Below are positions 27,816 through 63,932 of a DNA stretch of 64,000 nt, one piece after another. Both the position numbers and the translations under genes were made by a program. The notes under the pieces are model-generated. The model was not told the DNA's origin and did no database searches. It saw nothing but the letters and a program-made list of their open reading frames with translations. The stretch spans positions 434,001 to 498,000 of the forward strand of contig NZ_JQMP01000001.1 in NCBI RefSeq assembly GCF_000744775.1. Direction: 5' to 3'. Source of the stretch: Thermorudis peleae. Lineage in GTDB: Bacteria; Chloroflexota; Chloroflexia; Thermomicrobiales; Thermomicrobiaceae. The first letter of the stretch is position 1; each line of letters opens with the position of its first letter.

Positions 27816-28988
27816 TCAGTGCGGCCAGTAGACCGGTACCGTCACGTTGTTGAACACATTGCTGGGGAGACCAGCGATGTGTGTCACACCAGTGGCAAAA
27901 ATGCCGTAATACTCGTTCGCAATGGTGTTGCTCGCTACGGTCACATTCGTCACTGGAGCAGCGCCTTGGGCCGTATCGCTAAAGAGCACAATACCGGCTG
28001 GGTGACCAGTAGCGGCATCGCTGTCGGGGCCGTTACTGTTAAGCGCGTTCTGTACGATGACATTGCCGTTGAGGTTCTGGAACGGAGTATGGCTATGGAG
28101 CGCAATGCCCGGTAGGCCGTTTCCATTCGCAACGTTGTAAGCAATTGTGTTATTGTAGGTAGCTCCACTGGGCGGGCCAGCGAAGAGTCCAATGCCTGCA
28201 CCTTCGCTCAGCACGCCGTTACGCAGTGCATAGTTGCGGAGGATCTGATTGTGGTAAACCCCACCGTGCGCTGGATCGACTGAGGCTCCAAGGTGGAAGT
28301 AGTGTGAGGCTAAGGTAATGCCACAGTCGTAGGGATTATCTTGCACGATGTTGTCCATGATGACATTATCGTGGGTCGGGCCAAAGTCCATTGGGTTCAA
28401 CGGTGCGCCACCGTCATCACTGAGCAAGATACCGCCGGCATTATGCTGAACGATGTTGCGTGCAATCAGCGATGCTGCTGTCCCGAGCAGATGGATTCCC
28501 TCTCCACAGTCGAACTGCTCCATGGGCAACGCACCGTCGCACGTGAGCATCTGGGGATTGAGTTGGCGGTCATTGTTCTGCACGATATTATCTACCACGG
28601 TGATGCGTGCGGAGGATTCGAGCAGAATGCCCTCCTGATTGGCATTCTCGACTGTGAATCCGGAAATCAGCGTTGGTCCTGTCACTCCCACAACCTTGAT
28701 TCCGTTGGTCAGTCCTGTTGCGTCGAGAATGGTTACTGACGCCCCAGCTCCTTTCAGGATCACTGGCTTGGTGATTGTGACCATTTCATGGTACGTTCCC
28801 GGCTCCACCGTCACGACACCGCCGGCAACTACGGCATTGATCGCTGTCTGAATCGAGGTAAAACAGCCGCCAGCGCCACTAGGATTGACACAGGCTGAAC
28901 CAGCGGCTGCGTCCACACTCACGGTCATCCCTGCAAACATCCCAACGACAAGCGTAACGATCGAGACAAGCTTCATGCTTGGACCCAT
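27816..28988 (-). CDS. Secreted right-handed beta-helix protein (NosD/pectate-lyase-like)
   Basis: 390 residues. Signal peptide with core SIVTLVVGMFAGMTVSVDAAA. The mature part opens with the beta-helix entry pattern CFTSIQTAINAVVAGGVVTVEPGTYHEMVTITKPVILKG, then repeated N-G/N-x-I rungs such as ITVVDNIVQNN, SLIARNIVQHNAGGILLSDD and NVIMDNIVQDNPYD. These belong to the parallel beta-helix repeat family, found in carbohydrate-binding and surface proteins. No catalytic residues can be identified by eye. A ribosome-binding site AAGGAAGGGAG precedes the start. Monocistronic by spacing. Confidence 0.82.
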   Translation of the reverse strand: MGPSMKLVSIVTLVVGMFAGMTVSVDAAAGSACVNPSGAGGCFTSIQTAINAVVAGGVVTVEPGTYHEMVTITKPVILKGAGASVTILDATGLTNGIKVVGVTGPTLISGFTVENANQEGILLESSARITVVDNIVQNNDRQLNPQMLTCDGALPMEQFDCGEGIHLLGTAASLIARNIVQHNAGGILLSDDGGAPLNPMDFGPTHDNVIMDNIVQDNPYDCGITLASHYFHLGASVDPAHGGVYHNQILRNYALRNGVLSEGAGIGLFAGPPSGATYNNTIAYNVANGNGLPGIALHSHTPFQNLNGNVIVQNALNSNGPDSDAATGHPAGIVLFSDTAQGAAPVTNVTVASNTIANEYYGIFATGVTHIAGLPSNVFNNVTVPVYWPH

Positions 28989-42533: not shown

Positions 42534-44555
42534 GTGAGCAGCACGATACGCTTTGACGGTATTAGCTCGGGTCTGGATACAACATCAATCATCAATGCGC
42601 TCTTAACGTCCTATCAGCAGCCAATTACTCAACTCCAGCAACAGCAGTCGCAGATTCAGACCCAACAGAGCATTTGGCAAGAGCTTGGCAACCGGCTCAA
42701 TAGTCTCCTTTCCACGACCCAATCCCTGCTTCAGCGTGCTACGGTCATCGGTTATACCGTACAGCCAAGTGACAGCACGCCGCCATTCACTGCCACCGCC
42801 GGTCCGTCTGCTACCCCAGGCACCTACAGTATTCTTATCAACCAACTGGCGACGAGCACGGTTGCCCGTAGCAGCGGGCCAATGGCCGCTGACATCGACC
42901 CAACAGCATTGCTCAAAAACGATGCCTTCCGCACGGCTGTCACCGCTGGCACGTTTACGATTAATGGTGTCAGCATCAGTGTCAATCCCAATACTGATAC
43001 CCTGAACGATGTCATTAACCGAATCAATAGCAGCGGTGCGGGGGTCACCGCCTCGCTCGTCACTGTCGATGGCCGAAGCCGCTTAGCGTTGACGGCTACG
43101 ACGCCAGGCGGACCAATTCAGCTCGGTTCAGGGGGCGACACATCGAACTTTTTGAGCGCTACGAGCCTTCTTGCTGCACCACGCAGCGGCGATACCATCA
43201 CCGGCACCCGTAGCCTGGTCGCCGTTCGCACAGATCTGCCGCTTGCCCAGGCTAGCTTTGCTACACCCATCACGAGTCCAGGCACACTAACGATCAACGG
43301 CGTCCAGATCGCGTATGATCCCACTTCTGATACATTGGGCACGATTATCAACAAGATTAACGCTTCAACAGCGAATGTGATCGCCAGCTATGACACACAG
43401 ACTGACCGGCTAACGTTGACCAGCCGCACCACCGGGAGCCAGCAGATCAGCCTCAGCGATACCGGTAACCTGCTGGCTGCCCTAAACATTAACCCGTCAG
43501 CCCAGCAACTGGGCCAGAACGCCGTCTATAGCCTTGACGGCGGTACAACATGGCAGTACAGCACGAGTAATACCATCAACGATGCGATCCCGGGCGTTTC
43601 GCTCACCCTCACGCGCACCACCAGTACACCCTACACTTTCAGCATTGCCCCAAACGCTGACAATGCTGTCGCCGCAGTCAAGCAGTTTGTTGATCAATTC
43701 AACAGCGTGCTGTCCTACCTTGATCAGCAGACTGCCTACAATGCCGACACCAAACAGGCCGGCCCGCTACTCGGCGACAGCGGAGCACTCATGCTCGAGG
43801 CAACCTTGCGTCGGCTCGTCACCTCCCCCGCGACCAACGTGAGCGGGCCATTCAAGTCACTTGCTGATATCGGCATTAGCTTCGGTCCCGTCGGCTCGGC
43901 TGTCGGTACAACGAACCAGCTCCAGCTTGACGAAAGCAAGCTCCGCGCCGCGCTCGCGACGAATCCAAACGCGGTCTTTGAACTCTTTGGCGCGACGTCA
44001 CGCGCGACACTGTCAACACCCGGTGACATTGCGAACGCCTATGGCTCACCGACCGGCATCACTGCAAGCGGCCACTACGTGATCACGTCCGATGGCGCTG
44101 GACATTTCACCGCGCAGTTCTATGATGCCTCCAATACGTTGCGTTCGACACGCACCGAGACCCTTGCCCCAGGCGCCACGAGCAGCACACTCATCCCCGG
44201 CATGATTGTCACTGCTGCCAGCAGCTTCACGGGTGCACAGTCACAGATCACCGTCAACTACCAGTCTGGCGTGTTCAGCAGCCTTGCCCAATACCTGCAG
44301 AGTACCGTCGGCCCAAGCGGCATGATTGCCACCCGGGGCGACTCGTATCAGCAGCAATTACGCGACATCAACGACCAGATTCTCGTCTATCAAGACCGGC
44401 TGAACCAGCGGCGTGAGCAGTTGATCCAGCAATTTGCCCAGCTTGAAGCCCTGCTCGCTGAGATGATGCAGCAGAGTGCCCAGCTCGGGATGCAGATTCC
44501 AAGCTTCCTCGGCGCTGGCCAAGCAGCGTCATCGTCGAATGCATCAGGCTCGTAA
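42534..44555 (+). CDS. fliD: Filament cap protein FliD
   Basis: 673 residues, starting at GTG. FliD (HAP2) caps the filament and assists flagellin folding. The N-terminal IRFDGISSGLDTTSIINALLTSYQQPITQLQQQQSQIQ and the C-terminal coiled coil YQQQLRDINDQILVYQDRLNQRREQLIQQFAQLEALLAEMM are typical. The central part, Thr/Ser/Asn-rich with two repeated TFTINGVSISVNPNTDTLNDVINRIN-like segments, forms the surface domains. Immediately followed by fliS. Confidence 0.94.
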   Translation: MSSTIRFDGISSGLDTTSIINALLTSYQQPITQLQQQQSQIQTQQSIWQELGNRLNSLLSTTQSLLQRATVIGYTVQPSDSTPPFTATAGPSATPGTYSILINQLATSTVARSSGPMAADIDPTALLKNDAFRTAVTAGTFTINGVSISVNPNTDTLNDVINRINSSGAGVTASLVTVDGRSRLALTATTPGGPIQLGSGGDTSNFLSATSLLAAPRSGDTITGTRSLVAVRTDLPLAQASFATPITSPGTLTINGVQIAYDPTSDTLGTIINKINASTANVIASYDTQTDRLTLTSRTTGSQQISLSDTGNLLAALNINPSAQQLGQNAVYSLDGGTTWQYSTSNTINDAIPGVSLTLTRTTSTPYTFSIAPNADNAVAAVKQFVDQFNSVLSYLDQQTAYNADTKQAGPLLGDSGALMLEATLRRLVTSPATNVSGPFKSLADIGISFGPVGSAVGTTNQLQLDESKLRAALATNPNAVFELFGATSRATLSTPGDIANAYGSPTGITASGHYVITSDGAGHFTAQFYDASNTLRSTRTETLAPGATSSTLIPGMIVTAASSFTGAQSQITVNYQSGVFSSLAQYLQSTVGPSGMIATRGDSYQQQLRDINDQILVYQDRLNQRREQLIQQFAQLEALLAEMMQQSAQLGMQIPSFLGAGQAASSSNASGS

Positions 44556-44573: not shown

Positions 44574-44963
44574 ATGTCCTACGCCTATGCGCGGTACCGC
44601 CAGGTCGGTGTCGAAACGGCCTCACCAGTTGATCTCGTCGTCTTGCTCTATCGCGGCGCTATCCGCTTCCTTACCGAAGCCGAGCAGGCGATCCACCAGC
44701 ATGATGTGCCGCAAGCTCATGATCGTCTCCTCCGTGCCCAAGCGATCATCGCCGAGCTGATGGGAAGCCTCAATCTTGACGCTGGAGAGATCGCCGTCAA
44801 CCTTGGACGTCTCTATGACTATATGCAGCGCCGGCTGATCGAGGCAAACGTACGCAAAGATGCGCGCATTGTGGACGAAGTTCGCTGTCTGCTTGAGGAA
44901 CTGCTGAGTGCCTGGGAAGCCATTGCCAGGGGCGAGGCGCCGGTTCTCGCCGGTGCGCGCTAG
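44574..44963 (+). CDS. fliS: Flagellin export chaperone FliS
   Basis: 129 residues. Starts MSYAYARYRQVGVETASPVDLVVLLYRGAIRFL, the FliS signature. All-alpha. It binds the C-terminus of flagellin to prevent early polymerisation and brings it to FlhA. Its position after fliD is standard. Followed by fliT 3 bp later. Confidence 0.95.
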   Translation: MSYAYARYRQVGVETASPVDLVVLLYRGAIRFLTEAEQAIHQHDVPQAHDRLLRAQAIIAELMGSLNLDAGEIAVNLGRLYDYMQRRLIEANVRKDARIVDEVRCLLEELLSAWEAIARGEAPVLAGAR

Positions 44964-44966
44964 GGG

Positions 44967-45347
44967 ATGACCACGATGGTGCCTGACACAACGTGGCCAC
45001 TCACCCTGGCCTGCCGACTCCGTTCGTTCACAGCACGATTGCGCGCATGCGCCACAATCGGCGACTGGCAAGGCTGCCAAGCCGTGCTGCGTGAGCGTGG
45101 TGCATTGCTGGCCGATATTGCCAATCTTGACCCCAGAGCATTGACTCCGGCCGAGCGTGAAGCACTTGGCCAGGCCCTGCAAGAAGCGCGCGAGGAGGAT
45201 GCCGCGCTGCGCGAGCGTGTGCTTGCCGTGTGTGAGCGACTACAGGCGGAGCTGGCCTCGCTTGCGCAGGCTCAGCGGCTAGCCGATGGGTATTACCGTG
45301 CGACGAGCCATGCAGTGCGGGCGAGGCTGTTCGACCAATCGATCTAA
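44967..45347 (+). CDS. fliT: FliT-like flagellar chaperone
   Basis: 126 residues, mainly helices rich in Ala, Leu, Arg and Glu: LACRLRSFTARLRACATIGDWQGCQAVLRERGALLADI and an ALQEAREEDAALRERVLAVCERLQAEL coil. FliT holds the cap protein FliD. Assignment relies on position after fliS and on this helical pattern rather than on a strong signature. ATG at 44976 is an alternative. Its last 60 bp overlap the sortase reading frame. Confidence 0.68.
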   Translation: MTTMVPDTTWPLTLACRLRSFTARLRACATIGDWQGCQAVLRERGALLADIANLDPRALTPAEREALGQALQEAREEDAALRERVLAVCERLQAELASLAQAQRLADGYYRATSHAVRARLFDQSI

Positions 45348-46011
45348 CACGTGGCCGCTGGGCATCTTTGTCATGCTCTGCTTTGCCACTCTGCTAATCT
45401 CGGCCTGCCAATTTCCCGTCCACATCACCATTACAGTCGGCAGAGAGAACGCCGCGGCTCAAGCTCTCCCGACAGCAACCCCAAGTCCACGATCATCCCC
45501 AACGCCAACACCAACCCCCCGGGCAGTCGCAACGGCGACCCGCAAGGGTGCCATTCCGACAGCGCTCGTTGCACGCCTGCGCACTGCCCCACCCAACGAA
45601 TTGCAAATCCCACGCCTTGGACTCGACGCACCGGTCACTTCGGTCGCCTCTACGGTCGACCACGGTCAGTGGTATTGGCCAGTACCAGAGCACGCGCTTG
45701 GTCATCTGCTCGGCACGGCAAACCCTGGTGAGCCAGGCAATATTGCCATTTCCGGCCATGTTGACACGCGAACCGGCCCCGGCCTGTTTGCGCGGCTTGG
45801 CGATGTGCGCCCGGGCGACCTCGTTATTGTCCGCAGTGCCGACGGCGTCTTCACCTACCGCGTCATTGATGTCACAATCGTGCCAGAAGATGACCGAACG
45901 ATACTCCGTCAGACACCACAGGAGCAACTCACCCTCATCACCTGCCTGCCAGATGGACAATATCACCGCCGCATCGTCGTCCGTGCCCAGCGCGTCGAAT
46001 CCGCTGCCTAA
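45286..46011 (+). CDS. Sortase (class D/E-like), probable lipoprotein or membrane-anchored
   Basis: 241 residues from this start; ATG at 45310 or 45373 are alternatives and the 5' part overlaps fliT. An N-terminal hydrophobic segment with LLISAC (Cys41) looks like a lipobox. A Pro/Thr-rich spacer (62-85) leads to the catalytic domain with His158 (SGHVDT), Cys220 (TLITC) and Arg229 (HRRIVV), the complete His-Cys-Arg triad of transpeptidase sortases. It should cut LPxTG-type proteins and attach them to peptidoglycan or to other proteins. Putative substrates are encoded at 15684-16316 and 56526-59054. Confidence 0.88.
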   Translation: MGITVRRAMQCGRGCSTNRSNTWPLGIFVMLCFATLLISACQFPVHITITVGRENAAAQALPTATPSPRSSPTPTPTPRAVATATRKGAIPTALVARLRTAPPNELQIPRLGLDAPVTSVASTVDHGQWYWPVPEHALGHLLGTANPGEPGNIAISGHVDTRTGPGLFARLGDVRPGDLVIVRSADGVFTYRVIDVTIVPEDDRTILRQTPQEQLTLITCLPDGQYHRRIVVRAQRVESAA

Positions 46012-51603: not shown

Positions 51604-52073
51604 CGCCGGTTAACCGGCAGCGGCTCCAGCGGCTCCTGCGCCTGCTTGATTATCGGCGCCAGCGCACAACGGAAGCGCAACAGCAACTGGCTGCAGCAAC
51701 GCATCTGGTACTTAGCTGGGAGGCTCAGCTTGAGCGTCTCGATCAGACGCGATATCTGCTCGGGCGCAATGTTGAACGCACTGGTGGACAGGTGATCGAG
51801 CCAGCCCTGCTCGACGCTAGTGCTGTCTATCTCCGCTGGCTGAATGAACAGACTGAGCGTGCCCAGGATCACTTGGCCGTTGCTCAGGTAGAAGAAGCAC
51901 AAGCGCGCGATCGCCTCCTCACGGAGCGCAAAGAAGAGCGCAAAATCGAACGGCTCTATGACCGTTGGTCACACCTGCTCCATCGTCACATGCAGCAGCG
52001 TGAGTTGCAACAACTGGACGAGGCCGCGCTGCAACGCTATCGCGCACAGATCAACCCTGAGGAGGGCGTATGA
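51600..52073 (+). CDS. fliJ: Flagellar export chaperone FliJ
   Basis: 157 residues predicted to be two long antiparallel helices, rich in Arg, Gln, Glu, Leu. FliJ works with FliI-FliH and escorts export chaperones. Starts MTPVNRQRLQRLLRLLDYRRQ; the second helix runs through ERKEERKIERLYDRWSHLLHRHMQQREL. Low sequence conservation is normal for the family; the location after fliI confirms the call. Overlaps the next gene by ATGA. Confidence 0.88.
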   Translation: MTPVNRQRLQRLLRLLDYRRQRTTEAQQQLAAATHLVLSWEAQLERLDQTRYLLGRNVERTGGQVIEPALLDASAVYLRWLNEQTERAQDHLAVAQVEEAQARDRLLTERKEERKIERLYDRWSHLLHRHMQQRELQQLDEAALQRYRAQINPEEGV

Positions 52074-53095
52074 GCAGTGGCATTGTACTCTCGCCTGATC
52101 TGCTCGCCACACTCCCGCCAGGCTTTGGCATCCGTTCTCCCCAACTCGGACCAAGCACTGGCAGCGCAGCGCAATTCTGGGCCCTACTCGCGGCACGCGG
52201 TGTCGTCCCGGCAACCGGCATGGCTGTCGGCAGCGGGACAACGGCGGCAAGCGGGACAACCACTGAACAACAACTGCGTGGGAGCTGGCCGGTACATGGC
52301 CAAATCACCTCGACGTTCGGCCCCCGCAATCTCCTGCCAGGCGAGCAGGTGCATACCGGCATCGACCTCGCCGTCCCTGTTGGAACGCCGGTACAGGCAA
52401 CCGCCGATGGTGTTGTCAGTGCTGTTGGTCCGGCGGGGGGCTATGGACTGCGCGTTGAGATTTGTCATCCTGATGGAACAACGACGCTCTATGCCCATCT
52501 CCAGGCAGCTCTCGTCCAGCCAGGTCAGGTAGTGCATAAGGGCGATGTTATTGCCCAGTCCGGTAACTCCGGCGCATCCACTGGCCCGCACTTGCACTAC
52601 GAGATTCGGCGCAACGGTCAGCCGATCGATCCATTGCCGTATCTCCAAGCCACGCCGGTGCCGACCACGACGTCGGTAACTGCAGCAAACGCGCGTCTTG
52701 CCGCTATCCCCTATGCCAATCTGATCGCGCAAAGTGCCCAGCGCTATGGCCTCGATCCTGCGTTGCTCGCAGCCGTGATTCAGGTTGAGTCGGGCTTCAG
52801 TCCCTTGGCGGTGTCATCGGCGGGTGCTAAGGGGCTCATGCAGCTCATGGACAGCACCGCTGCGGCGCTCGGCGTTACCGACCCCTTTGACCCAGCGCAG
52901 AACATCGATGGTGGAGCACGGCTGTTGCAATCGTTGCTCGCACGCTACCAGGGCAACCTCGCCCTCGCACTCGCGGCTTACAACGCCGGGCCGGCAGCTG
53001 TCGACGCAGCAGGAGGCGTGCCAAATATAGCCGAGACTCAGGCCTACGTTGCTCGGGTGCTGGCGATCTATCGAGCATGGCAACAAGGAGGCTGA
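52070..53095 (+). CDS. Bifunctional peptidoglycan hydrolase: M23 endopeptidase plus SLT lytic transglycosylase
   Basis: 341 residues with no signal peptide or membrane segment. Residues 72-190 are an M23/LytM zinc endopeptidase, with His95 and Asp99 (HTGIDL), His143 (YAHL), His174/His176 (GPHLHYE). Residues 215-340 are an SLT (goose-type lysozyme-like) domain with catalytic Glu240 (VIQVESGFSP), SSAGAKGLMQLM and AYNAGP. Together these cut both peptide bridges and glycan strands. The gene sits between fliJ and flgB, so it most likely opens the wall for the rod, as FlgJ does. Without a Sec signal it is likely exported by the flagellar apparatus; this is inference. Confidence 0.93.
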   Translation: MSSGIVLSPDLLATLPPGFGIRSPQLGPSTGSAAQFWALLAARGVVPATGMAVGSGTTAASGTTTEQQLRGSWPVHGQITSTFGPRNLLPGEQVHTGIDLAVPVGTPVQATADGVVSAVGPAGGYGLRVEICHPDGTTTLYAHLQAALVQPGQVVHKGDVIAQSGNSGASTGPHLHYEIRRNGQPIDPLPYLQATPVPTTTSVTAANARLAAIPYANLIAQSAQRYGLDPALLAAVIQVESGFSPLAVSSAGAKGLMQLMDSTAAALGVTDPFDPAQNIDGGARLLQSLLARYQGNLALALAAYNAGPAAVDAAGGVPNIAETQAYVARVLAIYRAWQQGG

Positions 53096-53520: not shown

Positions 53521-55080
53521 ATGGTCGAGCGTGCAGGATTGGTCTCTTCGCCAGCACCCTCTGCGATGACGTCGCGACAGGGGAGCGCTGGTGAGGGAAT
53601 ATCGAACACTGCCTCACTCTTTGCTGTGCTCCTCGCTTTGTTCGCGCGGCCATCTCAGGCGCCACAGTTGGTTGCCCTCACCGCAGGGCACTTGGGAGCT
53701 GAGTCACCTGCTGGCAACTCCACACCAGCCAAACATGACGACGCGTCGGTGTCATCGCACATGCCGCAGGGTCAGCACGCAGCCTCGTTGGCAGCACTGG
53801 CCGGGCTGTTCCCGCTAACCCTACCGGCGACGTCTCCAAGTGCTGAACCGCCCCCAGCATCTGACGTAGCAAGCCAAGACATGCTCAACGCCTCCGCAAC
53901 AGTCGTAGCGCATGCGAACAATTCGGCTGCGCTGGCCTCGGCCACAGCTCCCCTAGCAACGGCAGCACCGTTGCCACAAATACAGGAGCCTGCTGAGATC
54001 GCAAGCACGCGCGGGCAACCGAGCATACAGCAACCCGCTGTGGTGCGTGTACTGTCGTCGGGTCAGCCAAGTGCGGCTCCAGTAACCAACCATACTGGCC
54101 CTCTTCAAGCTACGGTAACGCCACCCGGGTATACCCTCGCAGAGTTGCCGCAAGCGAATACAGCAGGGGTAGCGACGAGTGCAGGTCATCCTGGGCCGAT
54201 ACCCCTCGTGAATGGGACGCAGGATGAGGTGTCGCGTGGGGCGGTTGCTGTGGCTATGCCCGCGCCTGGGATGGCAACAGCCGAGCCGTCGCACCCGACG
54301 GCGACATTAGTGGCCCAGCTGGCTCCCAATGCTCCCGAACACCATGCTGTTACCGCTGCAACTGGACAAGCGCAGGGACAGCCGTCGGCCCAAGCGCATT
54401 CGCTGAATGCCGTCGTTGCTCTGGTCGATCATCGTGGGAGTGACGGCATGCATGCGACGGCGGAAGCAGACCATGCAAATGCGCTTCAAGGTGCTGTCAC
54501 AGCTGTGCATGACGCGGCCGCCCCCCTCGCAGTACTCACTCCAGGACAGTCGCATGGACTGACCAGCCATCACTCGATCGGCGCTACTGGCAACCTATCC
54601 CAAGCGCAGCCTGTCGATCAGGCCGTTACCCAGGCATTTGAGCAGGTGCAGCGTGCGCTGGCAAGCGGGCTTCGCGTCGTGCGGGTACGCCTCGAGCCAC
54701 CATCGCTCGGTGTCATCGATGTGCGCTTGAGCGAGTCAGCGGGTGTGCTGCGCATCTCGTTCGCAACTCCCCACGATGCGGTCCGGGATGCACTGATCCG
54801 TGGTCTCGACGATTTGCGTCAATCGCTGGTGGTGCACGGCTTCACTGTGCATCGCATTGAGGTCGCGCCATCACTAACGGCCGACACCAATGGCACGCCG
54901 TCGGGAGCGAGCAGTTGGAACAGCTGGTCGGATGCCTCCAGCCAGCGGCAGCACGATGCCTCACCCTGGAATACGAGAGCGAGCTGGCAGCAGAGGTTTC
55001 CGGACGAATCCAGCCAACCACTGCTGCCTGAACCGCCAACACGCGATGAGACTCCACGAACCGTCGACTATTGGGCATGA
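53521..55080 (+). CDS. fliK: Hook-length control protein FliK
   Basis: 519 residues. The first 350 are Ala/Pro/Thr/His-rich and unstructured, acting as a molecular ruler. The conserved C-terminal Flg_hook domain is at about 360-450: ALASGLRVVRVRLEPPSLGVIDVRLSESAGVLRISFATPHDAVRDALIRGLDDLRQSLVVHG. FliK contacts FlhB and switches export specificity. Located before flgD as usual. Confidence 0.9.
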   Translation: MVERAGLVSSPAPSAMTSRQGSAGEGISNTASLFAVLLALFARPSQAPQLVALTAGHLGAESPAGNSTPAKHDDASVSSHMPQGQHAASLAALAGLFPLTLPATSPSAEPPPASDVASQDMLNASATVVAHANNSAALASATAPLATAAPLPQIQEPAEIASTRGQPSIQQPAVVRVLSSGQPSAAPVTNHTGPLQATVTPPGYTLAELPQANTAGVATSAGHPGPIPLVNGTQDEVSRGAVAVAMPAPGMATAEPSHPTATLVAQLAPNAPEHHAVTAATGQAQGQPSAQAHSLNAVVALVDHRGSDGMHATAEADHANALQGAVTAVHDAAAPLAVLTPGQSHGLTSHHSIGATGNLSQAQPVDQAVTQAFEQVQRALASGLRVVRVRLEPPSLGVIDVRLSESAGVLRISFATPHDAVRDALIRGLDDLRQSLVVHGFTVHRIEVAPSLTADTNGTPSGASSWNSWSDASSQRQHDASPWNTRASWQQRFPDESSQPLLPEPPTRDETPRTVDYWA

Positions 55081-55093
55081 AGGGGGTGGGAAC

Positions 55094-55618
55094 ATGAGTG
55101 TAAGCGGCACGGCAGCGACAAGCACGAGCAGCAGCGCCGGGCAACCGGCGACAACGGTGCGCTCGCCAACGACAATGCTCGATAAGCAGGCTTTTCTGAT
55201 GTTGCTCGTCGCCGAGTTGCGGAACCAAGATCCGTTAAATCCAATGCAAGACCGCGACTTTATTGCCCAGCTTGCCCAGCTCAATGCTCTTGAGCAGATG
55301 CAACAAGTGAACCAGACACTCGAGACGCTGATCCAGCTGTCAGCAGTGGGACTCGTCGGCAAGTATGTCACCGGCACAGTGCCCGACACCGGCGAACAGG
55401 TCGTGGGCACCGTCGAGCGTGTCACGCTCAAGGACGGCAAAGCAGTGTTGCATATCGGTGACAAAGACCTGCCGTTGGATGACGTCGCAAGCGTTGCCGA
55501 CACTGCTCCAGCAAGCGCCGACCAGCCCAGCTCGTCCACCGAGAACACAGGCGCGGCGGGCATAACGAGCGGGACATCATCAACGACGAACACAAATGGG
55601 GCAGCGCCGTCGTCGTAA
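55094..55618 (+). CDS. flgD: Hook scaffold protein FlgD
   Basis: 174 residues from the ATG at 55094 after GGGGGTGGG. FlgD caps the growing hook. The key motif LDKQAFLMLLVAELRNQDPLNPMQDRDFIAQLAQLNALEQM is complete. The C-terminal part lacks the large Ig-like domains of enterobacterial FlgD; a short beta segment (VGKYVTGTVPDTGEQVVGTVERVTLKDGKAVLHI) and a Ser/Thr-rich tail are present. Followed by flgE after 40 bp. Confidence 0.93.
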   Translation: MSVSGTAATSTSSSAGQPATTVRSPTTMLDKQAFLMLLVAELRNQDPLNPMQDRDFIAQLAQLNALEQMQQVNQTLETLIQLSAVGLVGKYVTGTVPDTGEQVVGTVERVTLKDGKAVLHIGDKDLPLDDVASVADTAPASADQPSSSTENTGAAGITSGTSSTTNTNGAAPSS

Positions 55619-55658
55619 TGCGTGTGTGGAGTGCAAGAGGAAAAGGAGGTAGACCCCC

Positions 55659-56456
55659 ATGATGCGATCGCTCTTCTCAGCAATTTCTGGCCTACGGGCT
55701 CACCAGACGTGGATGGACGTGATCGGCAACAATATTGCCAATGTCAACACTACCGGGTTCAAGGAAGGCCGTGTTCGTTTTACCGACGTGCTCTATCAGC
55801 TGATCCACGGCGCGGGTGCACCCGGCAATAACCTCGGCGGCATTAACCCCGAGCAGATTGGACTGGGCGCATCAATCGCGGCGATCGACACCATCCAGAC
55901 ACAGGGCGCACTGCAGATGACCGGGAAGCCGACCGATCTTGCGATCCAAGGGGATGGCTTTTTCATCGTGCAGGATGCTTCCGGCAATAAGTTCTACACT
56001 CGCGATGGAGCATTCGGGACTGATGCCAATGGTGATCTGGTAAATCCGGCCACAGGTATGCACGTGTTGGATGCAAGTGGCAATACGATCAACATCCCAA
56101 ACACGATCGTCTCGTTCACCATTGACCAGCAGGGGAACATCGTCGGTGTTGACGCGAACGGCAACCAGCAGCAAATTGCCCAGATCGGCCTTGCTACGTT
56201 TGCCAACCCAGCTGGCTTGAGCAAGGTTGGCCAAAACCTCTTCGCCGAAACACCGAACTCCGGTACAGCGAATGCTGGTGCGCCGGGAACGAATGGACGC
56301 GGGTTAATCGCAAGCGGCTACCTTGAGATGAGTAACGTCGACCTGGCACAGGAATTCACCAACATGATCCTGGCCCAACGCGGCTTCCAGGCCAACGCGC
56401 GCACCATCACAACATCGGACGAGATGTTGCAGGAACTGGTGAATCTCAGACGCTAA
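55659..56456 (+). CDS. flgE: Flagellar hook protein FlgE (short, Bacillus-type)
   Basis: 265 residues, similar to Bacillus FlgE and much shorter than the enterobacterial one. N-terminal SLFSAISGLRAHQTWMDVIGNNIANVNTTGFKEGRV and C-terminal ASGYLEMSNVDLAQEFTNMILAQRGFQANARTITTSDEMLQELVNLRR. The assignment as hook rather than another rod protein rests on its place after flgD. Two adjacent ATG codons open the gene, with AAAAGGAGGT a few bases upstream, a very strong ribosome-binding site. Confidence 0.88.
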   Translation: MMRSLFSAISGLRAHQTWMDVIGNNIANVNTTGFKEGRVRFTDVLYQLIHGAGAPGNNLGGINPEQIGLGASIAAIDTIQTQGALQMTGKPTDLAIQGDGFFIVQDASGNKFYTRDGAFGTDANGDLVNPATGMHVLDASGNTINIPNTIVSFTIDQQGNIVGVDANGNQQQIAQIGLATFANPAGLSKVGQNLFAETPNSGTANAGAPGTNGRGLIASGYLEMSNVDLAQEFTNMILAQRGFQANARTITTSDEMLQELVNLRR

Positions 56457-56525
56457 ATCACGTTGCGGACAACGACGGCCAAAGTGGCTGGGGACAAGGT
56501 GAACAGTGGTGCCGAGGGAGGGGCA

Positions 56526-59054
56526 ATGGGCAGCGGGCGAAGCTGGCTGCGAGCAGGCTTGGTTGTGCTGGCACTCATCTTGAGCGGGAGCGGGGCATTC
56601 TTAGTCTATACCGGTCAAGCGAGTGGACAGACAACCAGCACGGGCGTCGTGTTCTACGTCCCGCCAACTGTGCCAGCCGCTGGCGCTGTAACACCAACCC
56701 CGACCGGTGCAACCAGCTACCCCACGATCCGTGCGGCGATCTCGGCTGCCAACACGACGCCGGGAGATGTCACGATCCAGCTTGGGGCTGGTACCTATCT
56801 CCTCGATGCTCCAGGTGCGGGCGACGACACGAACGCAACTGGCGACCTCGACGTCACCAAGCAGGGTGGCACGCTGGCAATCCTCGGCGCAGGATCTGGC
56901 AAAACCACTATCCAGTGGGGGAATACGCCAGGCGATCGCATCCTCGATGTACAAACTGGTGCAATTGTCGTCCTGCAAGGCGTAACACTGCAGAACGGCA
57001 GTGCACCGGGCAGCAGAGGTACGGCTGACGCCAATGGCGGTTTGGTGCGTAATGCTGGGACACTGAAGCTCAACGACGTCGTCCTGACAGGCGGGCAGGC
57101 CCCGAACGGCAGTGGCGGTGCACTTGCCAACACGGGGACGCTCACCATCGGCGATGCTCAGCCGGTCATTGTGTCAGCGAATAGCGCGCAGTCCGGCGGA
57201 GGCATTGCGAATAGCGGTGTGCTCTGGATTGCCCAGCTGACCCTCACCGCCAACCAAGCACTGGGCGGCGATGGTGGCGGATTGCTCAGCACAGGCGGAG
57301 AAGTCCATAGCAGTGGCCCAGCTTTTGCCGTAACGAACAATACGGCATACGGCAATGGCGGCGGCCTGGCACTCGAGGGTGGACAAGCCTTCCTTGCACA
57401 GATGACCATACAAGGCAACCAAGCCGATGAGCAAGGCGGTGGGGTGTGGTTGGGGCAGAGCCTCCAGCAGGCCGAGTTCTACACGGCAACCATCCAGCAG
57501 AATCAAGCAAGTGCTGGCGGCGGTCTCGCCGTTGCGGTGAATGGCAGCACGTCGGCCAAACCAGTCAAGCTTTATGCAGTGACGCTGAACGGCAACAGCG
57601 CGACCAGCGGCGACGGTGGCGGGGCGCTTGTTCTGCAGGGTGCGGCATTGCAGTTGCTGGCTGGGTCGCAGGTGGTGGCGAACAAAGCGACAGGGGCTGG
57701 CCACGGCGGCGGCATCGCCAACCAAGCAGGTGGTACGCTGATCATTGACGGCTCACAAGTGAGTAATAACCCTGCTGGCGTGAGCGTGACCGGTAATACG
57801 GCCGGATATGGCGGTGGCATCTGGAGCGCTGGCACACTTTCGCTCGGCCGCGCGCTTGTACAGGGCAATACGGCTATGTCGCAGGGCGGCGGGCTCTGGT
57901 TGGGTGGGGATACCAACAGTAAAGCTGTTGTCCAGAGCCATAGCCGCATTACAAGCAATGTAGCAAACGACCTCGGTGGGGGCATCTACCTCGCTGATCA
58001 GGCATCGCTCATGCTCAGCGATAGCGCAGTGGATAGCAACGTCGTGCGCAATGGCGCCGGTGGGGGTATCGTGATCGAGCCGAATGCAGTAGCCCAGCTT
58101 GACCACAGCACGCTGTGGGGCAATCAAGCTGGCGCGGCTGGCGGTGGGGCCGACGCCCGAGGGACGCTGACCATCGTCAACAGCACCATCGGTGCCAACC
58201 GCGGCACAACTCCTGGCGGTGGCGGCATCTTCGTCGAGCCAGGCGGCACCGCAACCCTCGCTTTCAGCACGCTTGCAGCTAACCAAGCGCCAGCTGGCGG
58301 GGCAGTCTATACCGCGGTCGGCGGTACGACAATCTTCGGCGGTGGTGTTCTCCTGGCTGATAACACCCCGCAGTCCTGCGGCGGCGCTATGTCCTCAAAA
58401 GGCGGCAACCTCGATGATGACGGAAGTTGCCAGCTGAACGGCAAAGGCGATCTTCCCGGGACAGATCCACAGCTCGGCGGCCAGTTGAGTCAAGGCGAGC
58501 AGCGGTATTACCTCCTCGCCGCCAGTAGCCCAGCGATCGATGCGGCGTCCAAGTCCTGCCCCAAGGACGACCAACTGCACCAGGTGCGGCCGCAAGGCAA
58601 AGGTTGTGACATTGGCGCGATTGAATTCGCCGCGCTGGGCCTAACGCCAACGCCAACTGCGACGGGGACGCCGGTGAGTACCCCAACAAGCACTGTAACA
58701 CCAGCAGTGCCGACAACAACACCGACCGCGACACCGCAGAGCACGTCGACTGCGACCCCAACGGCGACTGTAATGCCGACGCCAAGCGTGACACCAACGC
58801 CAACTGTTCTCACCGTGACACCAATTCCTGGCATTATCGTTGCTCCCCCGAGCGGCATCACGCCAACGCCGACGAGTGGAGTAGCAACTGGGACTCAGCC
58901 ACAGCCTACGCCGACGATTACGCTGCCGAGTACCGGTCAAGTACTGGGCAATCCTGCCCAAGTACAGCTTGGCTTCGGACTCATCGGGCTAGGGGGCGCA
59001 AGTTTCCTTGGTGCGGTCGCCGTGACGGTGGCACCACGACGTCGGGTGCGCTAG
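56526..59054 (+). CDS. LPSTG-anchored beta-helix surface protein (choice-of-anchor Q-like)
   Basis: 842 residues. Hydrophobic signal segment at about 10-28. A parallel beta-helix repeat region runs from about 60 to 690, with many GGG-NSG-and 'GGGxANSG' turns. It closes with SPAIDAAS...CDIGAIEF, the choice-of-anchor Q ending. A Pro/Thr spacer (TPTPTATG...) leads to LPSTG at 800-804, a hydrophobic helix and a RRRVR tail, a complete sorting signal. ATG at 56526 follows GAGGGAGGGG; a TTG at 56463 without such a site would add 21 residues. Probably a wall-bound adhesin or shield. Confidence 0.87.
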   Translation: MGSGRSWLRAGLVVLALILSGSGAFLVYTGQASGQTTSTGVVFYVPPTVPAAGAVTPTPTGATSYPTIRAAISAANTTPGDVTIQLGAGTYLLDAPGAGDDTNATGDLDVTKQGGTLAILGAGSGKTTIQWGNTPGDRILDVQTGAIVVLQGVTLQNGSAPGSRGTADANGGLVRNAGTLKLNDVVLTGGQAPNGSGGALANTGTLTIGDAQPVIVSANSAQSGGGIANSGVLWIAQLTLTANQALGGDGGGLLSTGGEVHSSGPAFAVTNNTAYGNGGGLALEGGQAFLAQMTIQGNQADEQGGGVWLGQSLQQAEFYTATIQQNQASAGGGLAVAVNGSTSAKPVKLYAVTLNGNSATSGDGGGALVLQGAALQLLAGSQVVANKATGAGHGGGIANQAGGTLIIDGSQVSNNPAGVSVTGNTAGYGGGIWSAGTLSLGRALVQGNTAMSQGGGLWLGGDTNSKAVVQSHSRITSNVANDLGGGIYLADQASLMLSDSAVDSNVVRNGAGGGIVIEPNAVAQLDHSTLWGNQAGAAGGGADARGTLTIVNSTIGANRGTTPGGGGIFVEPGGTATLAFSTLAANQAPAGGAVYTAVGGTTIFGGGVLLADNTPQSCGGAMSSKGGNLDDDGSCQLNGKGDLPGTDPQLGGQLSQGEQRYYLLAASSPAIDAASKSCPKDDQLHQVRPQGKGCDIGAIEFAALGLTPTPTATGTPVSTPTSTVTPAVPTTTPTATPQSTSTATPTATVMPTPSVTPTPTVLTVTPIPGIIVAPPSGITPTPTSGVATGTQPQPTPTITLPSTGQVLGNPAQVQLGFGLIGLGGASFLGAVAVTVAPRRRVR

Positions 59055-59073
59055 CTGCAGCACGGAGCGAGGC

Positions 59074-59739
59074 ATGGCCCGGAGCTGGCTCGCGCAGCTT
59101 GCGCTTGGCAGCGTCTTCGCCTGGCTCGTTGGCATGTTCGCCGGCTACGGCGGCGCCCATCTTGCCCATGTCCTCTCGCCTGCCCAAACGCCGACACCGC
59201 GGCCAGCAGCTGTGAGCGTGCGCTTGCCAACTCCAACCCCTTCGCAACCAACCGTACCCCCCTCGCCGACACCCAACCGCGGCGTGCCCATTGCCCGTGT
59301 GCTCATTCCGGATATCGGCGTCAACGCGCCGGTCGAGACACGCTCGCTCACGCCGCAGCGCGAGATGGAAGCCCCCAGTGGTCCAAGCGTCGTTGCCTGG
59401 TATGCCTTCAGTGCGCTGCCAGACAGCGGCGGCAACATCGTCTTAGCGGGTCACGTCGATTATGCTGGTGTTGGTCCAGCGGTCTTTTGGAACCTCTGGA
59501 AGCTGCCACTGGGCGCTCCAGTGACCTTGCAACTCGTCGATGGCCGGCTCGTGCACTATCGCGTCAGTGCGCGTTGGGTCGTTGACGAGCACAACGCGCC
59601 GGTTGATCAAATTCTTGGAGCTACACCACAGGAAACAGTGACGCTCATCACCTGTGCCGGAAACTATAATCCGGAGACGGGCCGGTATGACCAGCGTTTA
59701 ATCATCCGTGCTGAACGTGTGGCGCCTACCCGCTCCTAG
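59074..59739 (+). CDS. Sortase (class D/E-like), second copy
   Basis: 221 residues. One N-terminal membrane helix (about 8-30), a Pro/Thr-rich spacer to 70, then the catalytic domain with His127 (AGHVDY), Cys194 (TLITC) and Arg208 (YDQRLIIRAE). All three active residues are present. It follows the LPSTG protein by 19 bp, the usual pairing of a dedicated sortase with its substrate. It shares the catalytic pattern with the sortase at 45286 but is clearly diverged from it. Confidence 0.92.
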   Translation: MARSWLAQLALGSVFAWLVGMFAGYGGAHLAHVLSPAQTPTPRPAAVSVRLPTPTPSQPTVPPSPTPNRGVPIARVLIPDIGVNAPVETRSLTPQREMEAPSGPSVVAWYAFSALPDSGGNIVLAGHVDYAGVGPAVFWNLWKLPLGAPVTLQLVDGRLVHYRVSARWVVDEHNAPVDQILGATPQETVTLITCAGNYNPETGRYDQRLIIRAERVAPTRS

Positions 59740-59798
59740 CGCAGGCCGCTTGCTTCGGGCATGATCTTCTCAGAGCCAGAGGCATGAAGGGGGTGGGC

Positions 59799-60719
59799 AT
59801 GGCAGAGGAGACACTGCGACTCGGTTTTATCGGGCTTGACCCGCTCGGGCGCGCCATCGTGCAGCGGCTGCTCGCCCACGGCTATGAGGTGCTCGTTGCC
59901 GACCATCGCCGTGAAGTTGTGGAGGCGCTCGAGACCCTGGGTGCGATTGCCCTGCCGACGCCGCTGCTCGTCGCTGAAGAGGTCGATATCTTGCTGACGT
60001 TGCTGGACGGCGACACCGCGCTCTTCGAACTCTTCAGTGGGCCAGAAGGCGCGCTTGACCGGCTGCGTCCCGGTGCGATGGTGATCGATTTGACCAGTGC
60101 AACGCCGATGACGATGCAACAGCTGGCCGTCGATGCGGCGCTCCGTGGTGTCGCCTTGGTCGACGCTCCGGTCAGTGGTGCACCAGCGAGCGCACTGCGT
60201 GGAGAGTTGACGGCGATGGTCGGGGCAACGCCGGAAGTCTTCGAGCGCACGTTGCCGCTCTTGCAGGTGTTTGCGAAGTCGATTTACCGCGTCGGTGATC
60301 CGGGGATGGGAAAACTGGTAAAGCTGCTTACCCAGCTCCTCACGGGTGTCTCGCTCGTCGTATTCGGCGAAGCCTTAGCCCTCGCTACGCGCGCTGGCGC
60401 AGATCTGGACGCGCTTGCGGACGTGGTGCGTGCGAGCACTGGCGGCTGGCCGCTATGGCATGAGAGCGTCCTTTACCTCCTCGGGCAAACGCCAGCACCT
60501 GAGCAGGAATCACTGGCACGCTTGCGTCACGATCTCGAGCGGGTGTTGCGCCTTGGGGCTGACCTAGACTGTCCGGTGCCGCTGAGCGCGCTCGCCTACC
60601 AGTTCTCGATCTCATCAGGCGTGCGCAATCCGCACCTTGCACCAGCAGCCGATATTGCACGTGCCGTCGCCCGCTTCGCTGGCGTCCACTTCGCGCGGAG
60701 CGCGCGCAGTGAGGTATAG
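59799..60719 (+). CDS. Beta-hydroxyacid dehydrogenase family protein (NAD(P)-binding)
   Basis: 306 residues from the ATG at 59799 (GAAGGGGGTGGGC just upstream). Two-domain fold of 3-hydroxyisobutyrate/6-phosphogluconate dehydrogenases. The cofactor loop is GFIGLDPLG at 9-17 (usual GxGxxG; the middle Gly is Asp13). The signature DAPVSGAPASALRGELTAMVGA lies at 122-143 and the catalytic Lys175 in GMGKLVKLL is kept; the usual Asn-Asn after it is Thr-Gln. Cofactor use is uncertain. Convergent with livF, 7 bp apart. Substrate unknown. Confidence 0.85.
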   Translation: MAEETLRLGFIGLDPLGRAIVQRLLAHGYEVLVADHRREVVEALETLGAIALPTPLLVAEEVDILLTLLDGDTALFELFSGPEGALDRLRPGAMVIDLTSATPMTMQQLAVDAALRGVALVDAPVSGAPASALRGELTAMVGATPEVFERTLPLLQVFAKSIYRVGDPGMGKLVKLLTQLLTGVSLVVFGEALALATRAGADLDALADVVRASTGGWPLWHESVLYLLGQTPAPEQESLARLRHDLERVLRLGADLDCPVPLSALAYQFSISSGVRNPHLAPAADIARAVARFAGVHFARSARSEV

Positions 60720-60726
60720 ATTGAGC

Positions 60727-61443
60727 TTATTCGCGTGCCCCCAGGTATGCCGCCTGGACTTTGGGATCACTGGCCAGCTCAGCAGCCGGACCACTCAGGA
60801 CAATTTGGCCGGTCTCCAGGACATAGCCGCGATGAGCAATCTCCAGCGCCATCCGCGCGTTCTGCTCGACAAGTAAGATCGTCGTCCCCTGGGCATTCAG
60901 TTGCTGCAACACATCGAAGATATTCTCGACAACCACTGGCGCGAGCCCCATCGACGGCTCGTCGAGCAGAAGAATGCGCGGCTTGAGCATCAGGGCACGG
61001 CCGATGGCTAGCATCTGCTGCTCACCGCCGGAGAGCGTGCCACCGGGCTGGTGCCGCCGTTCGGCAAGACGAGGAAACAGGGTAAAGACTTCGTCCCGCC
61101 GCTGCTCGATCGTCGCCCGGTCTCGCACGGTGAAGGCGCCGAGTGCGAGATTCTCCTCAACACTCAGGCGCGGGAAAATGCGGCGACCTTCCGGCACGTG
61201 GCCGACGCCAAGCGCGACGACTTCGTGTGGGCGGAGCGCCGTGAGGTCGTGGCCGTCGAGCACAATTCGTCCGGCTCGCGGCCGCTGCAGGCCGGAGATT
61301 GCCCGAAGTGTCGTTGTCTTACCGGCACCATTTGCGCCGAGGAGCGTGACGATTTCGCCCGCCTCAACTGTCAGCGAAATCCCCTTCAACGCGTGAATTA
61401 AGCCGTAATAGACATGGACATTATCAAGCGTGAGCAGTGGCAT
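60727..61443 (-). CDS. livF: Branched-chain amino acid ABC transporter ATPase LivF
   Basis: 238 residues. Walker A GANGAGKTT near residue 38, signature LSGGEQQMLAIGRAL near 136, Walker B LLLDEP. LivF and LivG energise the LivHM permease. Start at 61443 gives the standard length with GGAGCAGGCG just before it; further upstream ATG/GTG would add a basic, non-conserved extension. Overlaps livG by 20 bp. Confidence 0.94.
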   Translation of the reverse strand: MPLLTLDNVHVYYGLIHALKGISLTVEAGEIVTLLGANGAGKTTTLRAISGLQRPRAGRIVLDGHDLTALRPHEVVALGVGHVPEGRRIFPRLSVEENLALGAFTVRDRATIEQRRDEVFTLFPRLAERRHQPGGTLSGGEQQMLAIGRALMLKPRILLLDEPSMGLAPVVVENIFDVLQQLNAQGTTILLVEQNARMALEIAHRGYVLETGQIVLSGPAAELASDPKVQAAYLGARE

Positions 61444-62269
61444 CGCCTGCTCCATCGTTCGAAAGCGGCGCAGACGGAGCGCTGAGCCCGGAGGCTGCGC
61501 CGCGCCCAAGATACGCCTCAATCACCCGTGGATCACGCTGCACCAGTGCTGGAGGCCCTTCAGCGATTTTCTCGCCGAAGTCCAGCACCGTCACGAGATC
61601 CGACAGGTCCATGACAAACTTCATATCGTGCTCAATCAACAGGATGGTCATTCCTCGTTCATCGCGCAAGCGGCGAATCAGCTTTGCCATCTCCGCGGTC
61701 TCGTTTGGGTTCATGCCGGCCGTCGGTTCGTCAAGAAGAAGTAGCTTGGGCCGGAGTGCAAGCGCACGAGCGATTTCGAGCCGTCGCTGGTCGCCATAAG
61801 GCAGGTTACTGGCAACGACAGCTTCACGGCCACGCAGCCCGACGAAGGCAAGGAGTTCACGCGCTTCGCGCAACGCCGCGGCCTCTGCCTCGCGATAAGC
61901 ACGCGTGTGGAAGATGGCAGCGAACGCACTGTAGTGAATGTGCGGATGCATACCGATCAGCACATTGTCAAGCGCAGTCAAATAACGGAACAGCCGGATT
62001 GTCTGATACGTTCGGGCAATGCCAAGACGAGCGATCTGGTCGGGGCGGAGGCCATCAATGCGCTGGCCCAAGAACCAGACGCCGCCCTCTTCTGGCCGGA
62101 GAAAGCCAGTGATGCAGTTAAAGAGCGTGGTCTTCCCCGCGCCGTTGGGGCCGATGACGCTGTGAATCGCTTGCGGGGCAACGGTGAGGTCAATGTTGCG
62201 CACAGCGACCAGGCCACCGAAGCGCTTGGTCAGCTGGCGAATGCTGAGGACTGGCTCAGTCGCTGCCAT
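61424..62269 (-). CDS. livG: Branched-chain amino acid ABC transporter ATPase LivG
   Basis: 281 residues. Walker A GPNGAGKTT, the LivG-type signature LPYGDQRRLEIARAL and Walker B LLLDEPTAGMN are clear; the C-terminal IAEGPPALVQRDPRVIEAYLG is typical. ATG at 62269 has AGGAG 9 nt before; a TTG at 62278 lies directly on that site. Overlaps livM by 14 bp. Confidence 0.94.
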   Translation of the reverse strand: MAATEPVLSIRQLTKRFGGLVAVRNIDLTVAPQAIHSVIGPNGAGKTTLFNCITGFLRPEEGGVWFLGQRIDGLRPDQIARLGIARTYQTIRLFRYLTALDNVLIGMHPHIHYSAFAAIFHTRAYREAEAAALREARELLAFVGLRGREAVVASNLPYGDQRRLEIARALALRPKLLLLDEPTAGMNPNETAEMAKLIRRLRDERGMTILLIEHDMKFVMDLSDLVTVLDFGEKIAEGPPALVQRDPRVIEAYLGRGAASGLSAPSAPLSNDGAGDATAHA

Positions 62270-63932
62270 CGGACGCAACTCCTACCACTTCTGCGGCCGT
62301 CTGTGCCCGGGCGGCTTCTTCAGCCTCCCGAAGCTCGCGCACCCGCACTTGCTCAGGCCAGAGCCCAGCTGGGCGGAAGAGCATCATCAGGATGAGAACC
62401 GCCCCATAAACCAGGAGACGATATTCCTGGAACTCGCGCAACATCTCGGGCAGCCCGACAAGAGCAAGCGCGCCGACGACAACGCCCGGCAAACTGCCCA
62501 TGCCACCAATGATCAGCAACGCTACGACATTCACTGAGACGAGCAGCTGGAAGCTCGCTGGCACCACTGAACCGACGAGCGATGCGAACAGCGCGCCGCT
62601 TAACCCACCGAAGGAGGCGCCAATGCCGAATGCAAGGAGCTTGGCCGTCACACGGTTAATACCCATCGCTTGAGCAACGACCTCATCCTCACGAATCGCT
62701 AGCCAAGCGCGCCCAATACGTGAGTCGCGGAGCCGAACTGACAGGAACCACGCGATGGCACAGCCGATAAGGATGAGGTAGTAGAAGTGCTGAGGCTGAG
62801 TGAAATGAAAGAGGCCGAGTGATGGCCGGGCAATACGCGTGATGCCTTGGGCGCCACCAACATAAGGCTTCAGCCAGTCAGAGAGGAAGAGCAAGCGGAC
62901 AATTTCACCAAAGCCCAGCGTCGTGATCGCAAGGTAGTCGCCGCGCATCCGCAAGACAGGTAGACCGATGAGGATGCCAGCGAGCACGGCGAAGATCATG
63001 GCAAAGGGCAGCGCTTCCCAGAAGGTAAACGAGAAGCGGCCAAGGTCAGGCGAGGTCAGGACACCCATGGTGTAGGCACCGACGGCGAAGAAAGCGACGT
63101 AGCCAAGGTCAAGCAAGCCAGCGAAGCCGAGCACGAGATTGAGGCCAAGCCCCATGAGAATGTAGAGTCCAACAAAGTCGGCAACGTTGCTCAGGAAGAG
63201 CTTTGCCCAGAGGGGAAACGTTACCAGGAAAAGCAAGAGGACAACAAGCGCCACGGTACGCTGCACCCGTGTGAATCCGCGTGACTGCGCGGTGGTACGC
63301 GATGTCCGCTGCCGGATGCCTTCGCGGATACCAAAGAGCACAAGGAAGAGAATAAACAAGCCGATGGCGCCGGTGAGTGAGAGACCGACAGCGCCGTAGA
63401 TTGCCTGCCCGATGCTTGGGGGCAAGATCGCAACAATCACGTCGCGAAGGAGTCCGAGGAGTAAGACGATAGCAAGCGAGCTCGTCACCATGCGGCGAGC
63501 TGCGGCAGGCAAGAGCGTCAGCGCCCCACCAAGCAATCCAGCCGCCAGCCCCCCAACCAGATCAGCCAGGATGCCAGCAGCGGTTGGCCCGCGCTGAAAC
63601 GTCAGCGTGTTGGCTAGCTGCGGTGTTGCGGCGATGAAGATTGGGCCGATTTGGACATGGGTGATCAGGAGCGCGAGGAGTGCAGTGCCAATGCCTGCGA
63701 TCCCGCCCACACCAGTGGCAACGACGAGGCGAACGAGTGGGCTAACCAGCACCCGGGAGGCCAGGTAGCCCATCAGGAACATCGTGCCGAGAATCAGCAC
63801 CATGCTCACTGTAACAGTGCGCCCAACCAGCGCACGCTGGGCAAACGCCTGAATCATTCCCACGAGGCTTAAATGCCAGAGCACAACCGTAGCGATCAGG
63901 CCGAAGAACAGTGTGCGGCGTGCTGCTGCCAT
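62256..63932 (-). CDS. livM: Branched-chain amino acid ABC transporter permease LivM, with N-terminal extension
   Basis: 558 residues. The C-terminal 330 residues match LivM: GLYILMGLGLNLVLGFAGLLDLGYVAFFAVGAYTMGVL, LPVLRMRGDYLAITTLGFGEI and GRAWLAIREDEVVAQAMGIN. The first 220 or so residues add about five hydrophobic segments (IGLFILFLVLFG, ALVVLLLFLVT and others) not present in standard LivM of about 330 residues, although long versions are known in some phyla. A start near 63210 would give a short form, but the full frame has good coding style throughout. Next upstream is the end of livH. Confidence 0.9.
   Translation of the reverse strand: MAAARRTLFFGLIATVVLWHLSLVGMIQAFAQRALVGRTVTVSMVLILGTMFLMGYLASRVLVSPLVRLVVATGVGGIAGIGTALLALLITHVQIGPIFIAATPQLANTLTFQRGPTAAGILADLVGGLAAGLLGGALTLLPAAARRMVTSSLAIVLLLGLLRDVIVAILPPSIGQAIYGAVGLSLTGAIGLFILFLVLFGIREGIRQRTSRTTAQSRGFTRVQRTVALVVLLLFLVTFPLWAKLFLSNVADFVGLYILMGLGLNLVLGFAGLLDLGYVAFFAVGAYTMGVLTSPDLGRFSFTFWEALPFAMIFAVLAGILIGLPVLRMRGDYLAITTLGFGEIVRLLFLSDWLKPYVGGAQGITRIARPSLGLFHFTQPQHFYYLILIGCAIAWFLSVRLRDSRIGRAWLAIREDEVVAQAMGINRVTAKLLAFGIGASFGGLSGALFASLVGSVVPASFQLLVSVNVVALLIIGGMGSLPGVVVGALALVGLPEMLREFQEYRLLVYGAVLILMMLFRPAGLWPEQVRVRELREAEEAARAQTAAEVVGVASDGSD

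Follow-up and report, generated by a model that had tools for sequence, protein, structure and literature searches.

Sortase loci of monoderm bacteria, among them those of the class C pilus and the class E and class F pairs, encode a sortase with His-Cys-Arg residues next to its substrate, and the substrate carries a signal peptide, an LPxTG motif, a hydrophobic segment and a basic tail. Here we describe a locus from Thermorudis peleae that is built in the same way but, unlike those loci, lies within flagellar operons, where the sortase-substrate pair is accompanied by a second sortase and a second substrate. The window that we analysed is a stretch of 64,000 nucleotides (contig NZ_JQMP01000001.1, positions 434,001 to 498,000); coordinates are positions in this stretch, on its plus strand unless the minus strand is given. 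The preliminary description of the locus knew of no sortase system embedded in a flagellar operon, and our own literature searches likewise turned up no account of sortases in such operons; the word sortase is absent from the main text of the papers on Thermomicrobium roseum (PMC2615216) and Tepidiforma (PMC10284905). The genomic link of sortases and LPxTG proteins to flagellar operons is well supported, and on balance we lean towards the view that monoderm Chloroflexota possess a sortase system dedicated to the flagellum, of which this locus is a part and which would fix accessory proteins to the wall during rod and hook assembly.

The hook-operon pair follows flgD (an ORF at 54890-55618, its start uncertain and its order conserved in relatives) and flgE (55659-56456), the hook gene, whose product is 70% identical to T. 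roseum FlgE over the N-terminal part of the latter. The top NCBIfam score of this hook gene is FlgG; we nevertheless name it flgE because it follows flgD, because its relatives are annotated FlgE, and because flgF and flgG lie elsewhere (at 16313 and 17078). With 265 residues, the product lacks the middle part of the FlgE proteins of T. roseum and Thermalbibacter, which have 423-425. Directly downstream, from the ATG at 56526 to the stop at 59054, stands the ORF for an 842-residue protein, followed by a sortase gene (59074-59739). The 842-residue protein begins with a Sec-type signal and ends with LPSTG at residues 800-804, a hydrophobic segment and the basic tail RRRVR, precisely as the preliminary description had placed them; it thus has every element of an LPxTG protein, the sorting signal is kept in relatives, and by its sequence the protein would be attached covalently to peptidoglycan. 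The sortase has 221 residues and an N-terminal membrane anchor, and it matches the Pfam family Sortase (PF04203) at 71.3 bits against a cut-off of 26.6. Its residues His127, Cys194 and Arg208, also given correctly before, are invariant across 14 orthologues. Class F (NF033748) is the best-scoring class, and the T. roseum orthologue is annotated as class F in RefSeq; unlike class F sortases proper, the window's enzyme scores 97.3 bits, under the curated cut-off of 166, so we call it class-F-like. In a tree, the hook-operon sortases, including those of Sphaerobacter, form a single clade of 15 orthologues with a support of 93.

The substrate had been called a beta-helix giant, of which the beta-helix stands and the giant is an overstatement at 842 residues. 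The Pfam family Beta_helix (PF13229) matches at 55.4 bits (cut-off 25.9), and AlphaFold2 gives a confident model of a right-handed beta-helix over residues 105-600, approximately; the NCBIfam choice-of-anchor Q model (NF041518) matches residues 647-701 at 48.3 bits (cut-off 25), and a Pro/Thr stalk lies between this segment and LPSTG. Like Rhombotarget A and other sorted right-handed beta-helix proteins, it joins a beta-helix body to a C-terminal sorting signal; unlike Rhombotarget A, it has LPxTG instead of GlyGly-CTERM and stands in a hook operon. A second beta-helix protein, NosD-like and of 390 residues, is encoded on the minus strand at 27816-28988, within the flagellar and chemotaxis region.

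It is here that a serious rival explanation has to be met, namely that the LPxTG proteins are wall adhesins or a coat that serve attachment or biofilm switching, are simply regulated together with motility and do nothing mechanical at the flagellum. A beta-helix with a choice-of-anchor segment is typical of surface proteins; the closest match in structure, at low TM-scores, is Rhombotarget A, itself a sorted beta-helix surface protein; conservation is lower in the beta-helix protein than in its sortase (35-36% against 56-59%, with 35% against 59% identity to T. roseum); and in genus g5 a GGDEF-EAL gene lies just 3' of the hook-operon sortase. Against adhesion speaks the second substrate in the window, the rod-operon LPxTG protein described below, which is small and conserved, has a gene that shares 4 bp with flgF and is nearly confined to flagellated genomes, all of which would be unusual in an adhesin. 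We take co-regulated adhesion to be fairly unlikely. The beta-helix protein after flgE is, as its sequence comparisons indicate, a lineage-specific and faster-evolving surface part.

The gaps in the hook operon are short, with 69 bp from flgE to the LPxTG gene and 19 bp from there to the sortase gene, and purine-rich stretches precede the starts of both. Pattern scans of 55500-60800 gave no sigma-70 promoter-like site, and on the plus strand no terminator-like site but one within the sortase gene. Co-transcription of flgE, the LPxTG gene and the sortase gene, which had been suggested from ribosome-binding sites and spacing, is made likely by these features and by the conservation of the order. 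Past the sortase, at a distance of 45 bp, come a dehydrogenase gene and then branched-chain amino-acid transporter genes (59784-63932), a set that is also present in T. roseum and is unrelated to flagella.

Many of the genomes in this analysis are metagenome-assembled, some with 5-9% contamination. In the 61 genomes of the order that we surveyed, the nearest sortases lie about 3 kb downstream of flgE in three genera (g1, g5 and g6), and at the loci read there flgE and the LPxTG gene are 30-68 bp apart. The order flgE, LPxTG gene, sortase gene is found in T. roseum (on the megaplasmid, as flgE TRD_RS12085, beta-helix protein TRD_RS12080 and class F sortase TRD_RS12075), in Thermalbibacter longus, in Thermomicrobium sp. 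CFH 73360 and in related MAGs. More than 60 other sortase loci, from other Chloroflexota, Planococcus, Exiguobacterium and others, gave no match to the flagellar genes searched for. Sphaerobacter has no LPxTG-sortase pair at the end of its hook operon; there the hook-type sortase faces fliO, at the end of motA-motB-fliL-fliM-fliN-fliO, some 80-170 bp away. Absence of conserved synteny, which had been named in advance as the finding that would speak against a link with the flagellum, is therefore not what we see, since the order is kept in three genera and the Sphaerobacter sortase still adjoins a flagellar operon. The earlier word dedicated may plausibly be applied to the pair, given that two of three Sphaerobacter genomes carry both genes together at this different flagellar site; the third, a MAG, has the sortase without the substrate and speaks against it. 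In Thermalbibacter (L065, 1679-3763) a GGDEF-EAL gene separates the hook-operon sortase gene from the dehydrogenase gene that is conserved there, with an ORF of similar size in L066 and L068.

Part of this synteny is general, because the downstream genes also keep their order: the dehydrogenase gene does so across three genera, followed in T. roseum by the amino-acid transporters. This lends something to the explanation that sortase and surface-protein genes adjoin flagellar genes by chance inheritance of a neighbourhood. We think this very unlikely, as the gap between flgE and the LPxTG gene is steady at 30-86 bp among relatives with the conserved order, whereas that 3' of the sortase runs from 45 to more than 2000 bp, and as different sortases lie at different flagellar sites in 13 families, far more often than chance would have it.

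Beyond the hook-operon pair, which the preliminary description had seen, the window encodes a second sortase and a further LPxTG protein, both of which it had missed. The second sortase, SRT_A (45286-46011, its exact start uncertain), matches PF04203 at 94.5 bits and begins with the lipobox LISAC. It is placed after fliD (42534-44555, matching PF07195 and PF02465), a fliS-like ORF (44574-44963) and a fliT-like ORF (44967-45347), the end of which it overlaps, and before flgC. The last two ORFs are named after the order annotated in T. roseum, where a sortase (TRD_RS13845) likewise follows fliD, fliS and fliT. A second sortase after fliD or fliT is also found in Thermomicrobium genomes, in genus g5 with Thermalbibacter, and in Sphaerobacter, and beyond the family fliD is followed by a sortase in f3, f36, f39, f62, f63, f68 and f72, although for f62 the stretch read shows the sortase upstream of flgC but no fliD. 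By a strict pattern, 12 of 19 fliD-linked sortases have a lipobox near the N-terminus, a number that rises to about 16 on inspection by eye; among sortases with no link to flagella, 2 of 49 have one. The second sortase is usually a predicted lipoprotein. To our knowledge, a lipid-anchored sortase is unusual. Elsewhere in the window's flagellar region, a BTAD/NB-ARC/TPR transcriptional regulator of 1044 residues (23273-26407, minus strand) adjoins flagellin between flagellar clusters, and an M23 peptidase-lytic transglycosylase fusion (52070-53095), noted before in T. roseum (PMC2615216), lies in a fli operon and is kept in relatives.

The second substrate is the rod-operon LPxTG protein (15684-16316), whose 210 residues comprise a signal peptide, an RskA_C-like ectodomain, LPKTG, a hydrophobic segment and a basic tail. 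Its gene lies downstream of fliA, for the flagellar sigma factor (14425-15237), and upstream of the rod genes flgF (16313-17056) and flgG (17078-17860); its end overlaps the start of flgF by 4 bp, as it also does in T. roseum, Thermomicrobium, Sphaerobacter and others. Searched with a profile built from ten members, 30 of 400 Chloroflexota genomes give a strong match, and the gene stands between fliA and flgF in 12 Chloroflexota families. Nearly all loci read have fliA upstream, flgF downstream and an ending of the form LP[QKNRDY]TG, the exceptions being L208 (LPSTA, with no recognised flagellar neighbours) and L200 (cut off at the contig start). FliF is present in 28 of the 30 strong-match genomes and in 45 of the 400 overall, for which the hypergeometric probability of 5e-29, uncorrected for relatedness, is inflated because the genomes are related; one strong-match genome without FliF (G092, 87% complete) has the flanking fliA and flgF. 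Conversely, 17 FliF-positive genomes, among them members of f16, f23, f45, f48 and f60, give no strong match. This protein is the widespread and probably the older substrate. The AlphaFold2 model of the protein by itself is poor (mean pLDDT 46.6), and a profile search of the PDB with the family gave no match.

The ectodomain matches RskA_C (PF10099) at 31.9 bits, against a cut-off of 29.4, and at E <= 0.01 in 14 of 26 members of the family. Like RskA-type anti-sigma factors, then, the rod-operon protein has this ectodomain and a gene downstream of a sigma factor gene; unlike them, it has a signal peptide and LPxTG and lacks the cytoplasmic anti-sigma domain, the members having either a signal peptide or a short tail at the N-terminus. 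As an anti-sigma factor proper it was rejected for want of that domain. One might still see in it a signalling relic of such a factor, reporting the status of wall or rod to FliA: the family is that of RskA_C, fliA lies upstream, and the Bacillota relatives, where read, are ECF anti-sigma factors with a cytoplasmic domain beside ECF sigma genes, as weak matches. In 398 Bacillota genomes the profile of the rod-operon protein found nothing at E <= 1e-8, in a scan run without a positive control. Given the signal peptide in place of the cytoplasmic domain, the sorting signal at the end, and the FlgM that T. roseum possesses, we hold a relic to be highly improbable.

Across Chloroflexota, 18 of 41 flagellated genomes encode a sortase no more than 25 kb from fliF, against about 1.3 expected, an approximate figure derived from sortase number and genome size with fliF as the sole anchor. 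The flagella-linked sortases belong to 13 families (f1, f3, f23, f36, f39, f45, f49, f50, f60, f62, f63, f68 and f72), and their sites vary, from after fliD or fliT to after flgE (f60), upstream of motA (f49) and before flgB (f23), and in f50 the sortase gene is convergent with the hook-gene cluster, at the end of the latter. A tree of the sortases suggests several recruitments of sortases to flagellar loci and not one inherited sortase. In the flagellated families f16, f17, f20, f28, f30 and f48 no flagella-linked sortase was seen on the contigs available, several genomes being too fragmented to show one; the module is not universal because of these families and of the 17 FliF-positive genomes without a match to the rod-operon protein.

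The flagella concerned also lack the usual P ring. A search for its protein FlgI (PF02119) gave matches in the positive controls E. coli, Caulobacter and Thermotoga but in not one of 46 flagellated genomes, and the absence of L and P rings has been published for T. roseum (PMC2615216), for freshwater Chloroflexi (PMC6169038) and for nearly all Dehalococcoidia, a group that includes Tepidiforma, which is motile and possesses peptidoglycan as well as an S-layer (PMC10284905). T. roseum itself is described as non-motile (PMC2615216), which counts against a flagellar role of the system. Compared with the diderm LP ring (FlgH, FlgI), the likeness of the present system is one of proposed task only, a wall-fixed component near the rod; unlike it, the system has no FlgI, an unrelated and acidic ectodomain family, and anchoring by sortase instead of ring assembly. 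That the anchored proteins would form a ring or bushing around the rod in place of the P ring is in keeping with the missing FlgI, the published surveys and the position beside flgF, and yet we find it unlikely. The ectodomain is acidic in 26 of 26 members scored (pI 4.1-6.7), whereas the Salmonella rod surface is itself negative and charge on both sides is thought important for the LP ring (PMC11673145); in Bacillus a ring of this kind is not required, the thick wall being believed to suffice (PMC11673145); and several flagellated families have no rod-operon protein. A positively charged, FlgI-like bushing was thus left unsupported. For a wall collar, should there be one, the rod-operon LPxTG protein is a better candidate than the hook-operon one, and the fullest version of the idea is a doubtful one: a rod-operon collar, fastened by the lipid-anchored sortase expressed with cap and rod genes, would replace the missing P ring, and the hook-operon beta-helix would extend it through the surface layer.

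In the flagellum-dedicated sortase system that we favour, the LPxTG proteins would be exported via Sec, and sortases co-expressed with hook, rod or cap genes would cut LPxTG between T and G and join the proteins to peptidoglycan, setting accessory proteins in the wall while the flagellum is being built, with the timing of anchoring coupled to the expression of rod, hook and cap. The Thermomicrobiaceae would have added, after flgE, the class-F-like sortase and a rigid beta-helix projecting from the wall on its Pro/Thr stalk. We infer a mechanical role. The likely one, in cells that have neither L nor P rings, would be to accommodate rod and hook as they rotate within the wall and surface layer, or else to shape the adjacent surface. 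The sortases may have further substrates, since another protein with an IPATG-type sorting signal (G000:C3:264087-264389, L085) has no adjoining sortase.

The way in which the wall holds flagella that lack L and P rings has so far been largely a matter of assumption. Our results suggest that the P-ring-less flagella of Chloroflexota use previously undescribed wall-anchored accessory proteins, and the conserved wall-anchoring genes in flagellar operons across much of a phylum are named targets to delete, tag and image. They would extend sortase biology to a rotary organelle, and they add unannotated genes to the flagellar set of the Chloroflexota.
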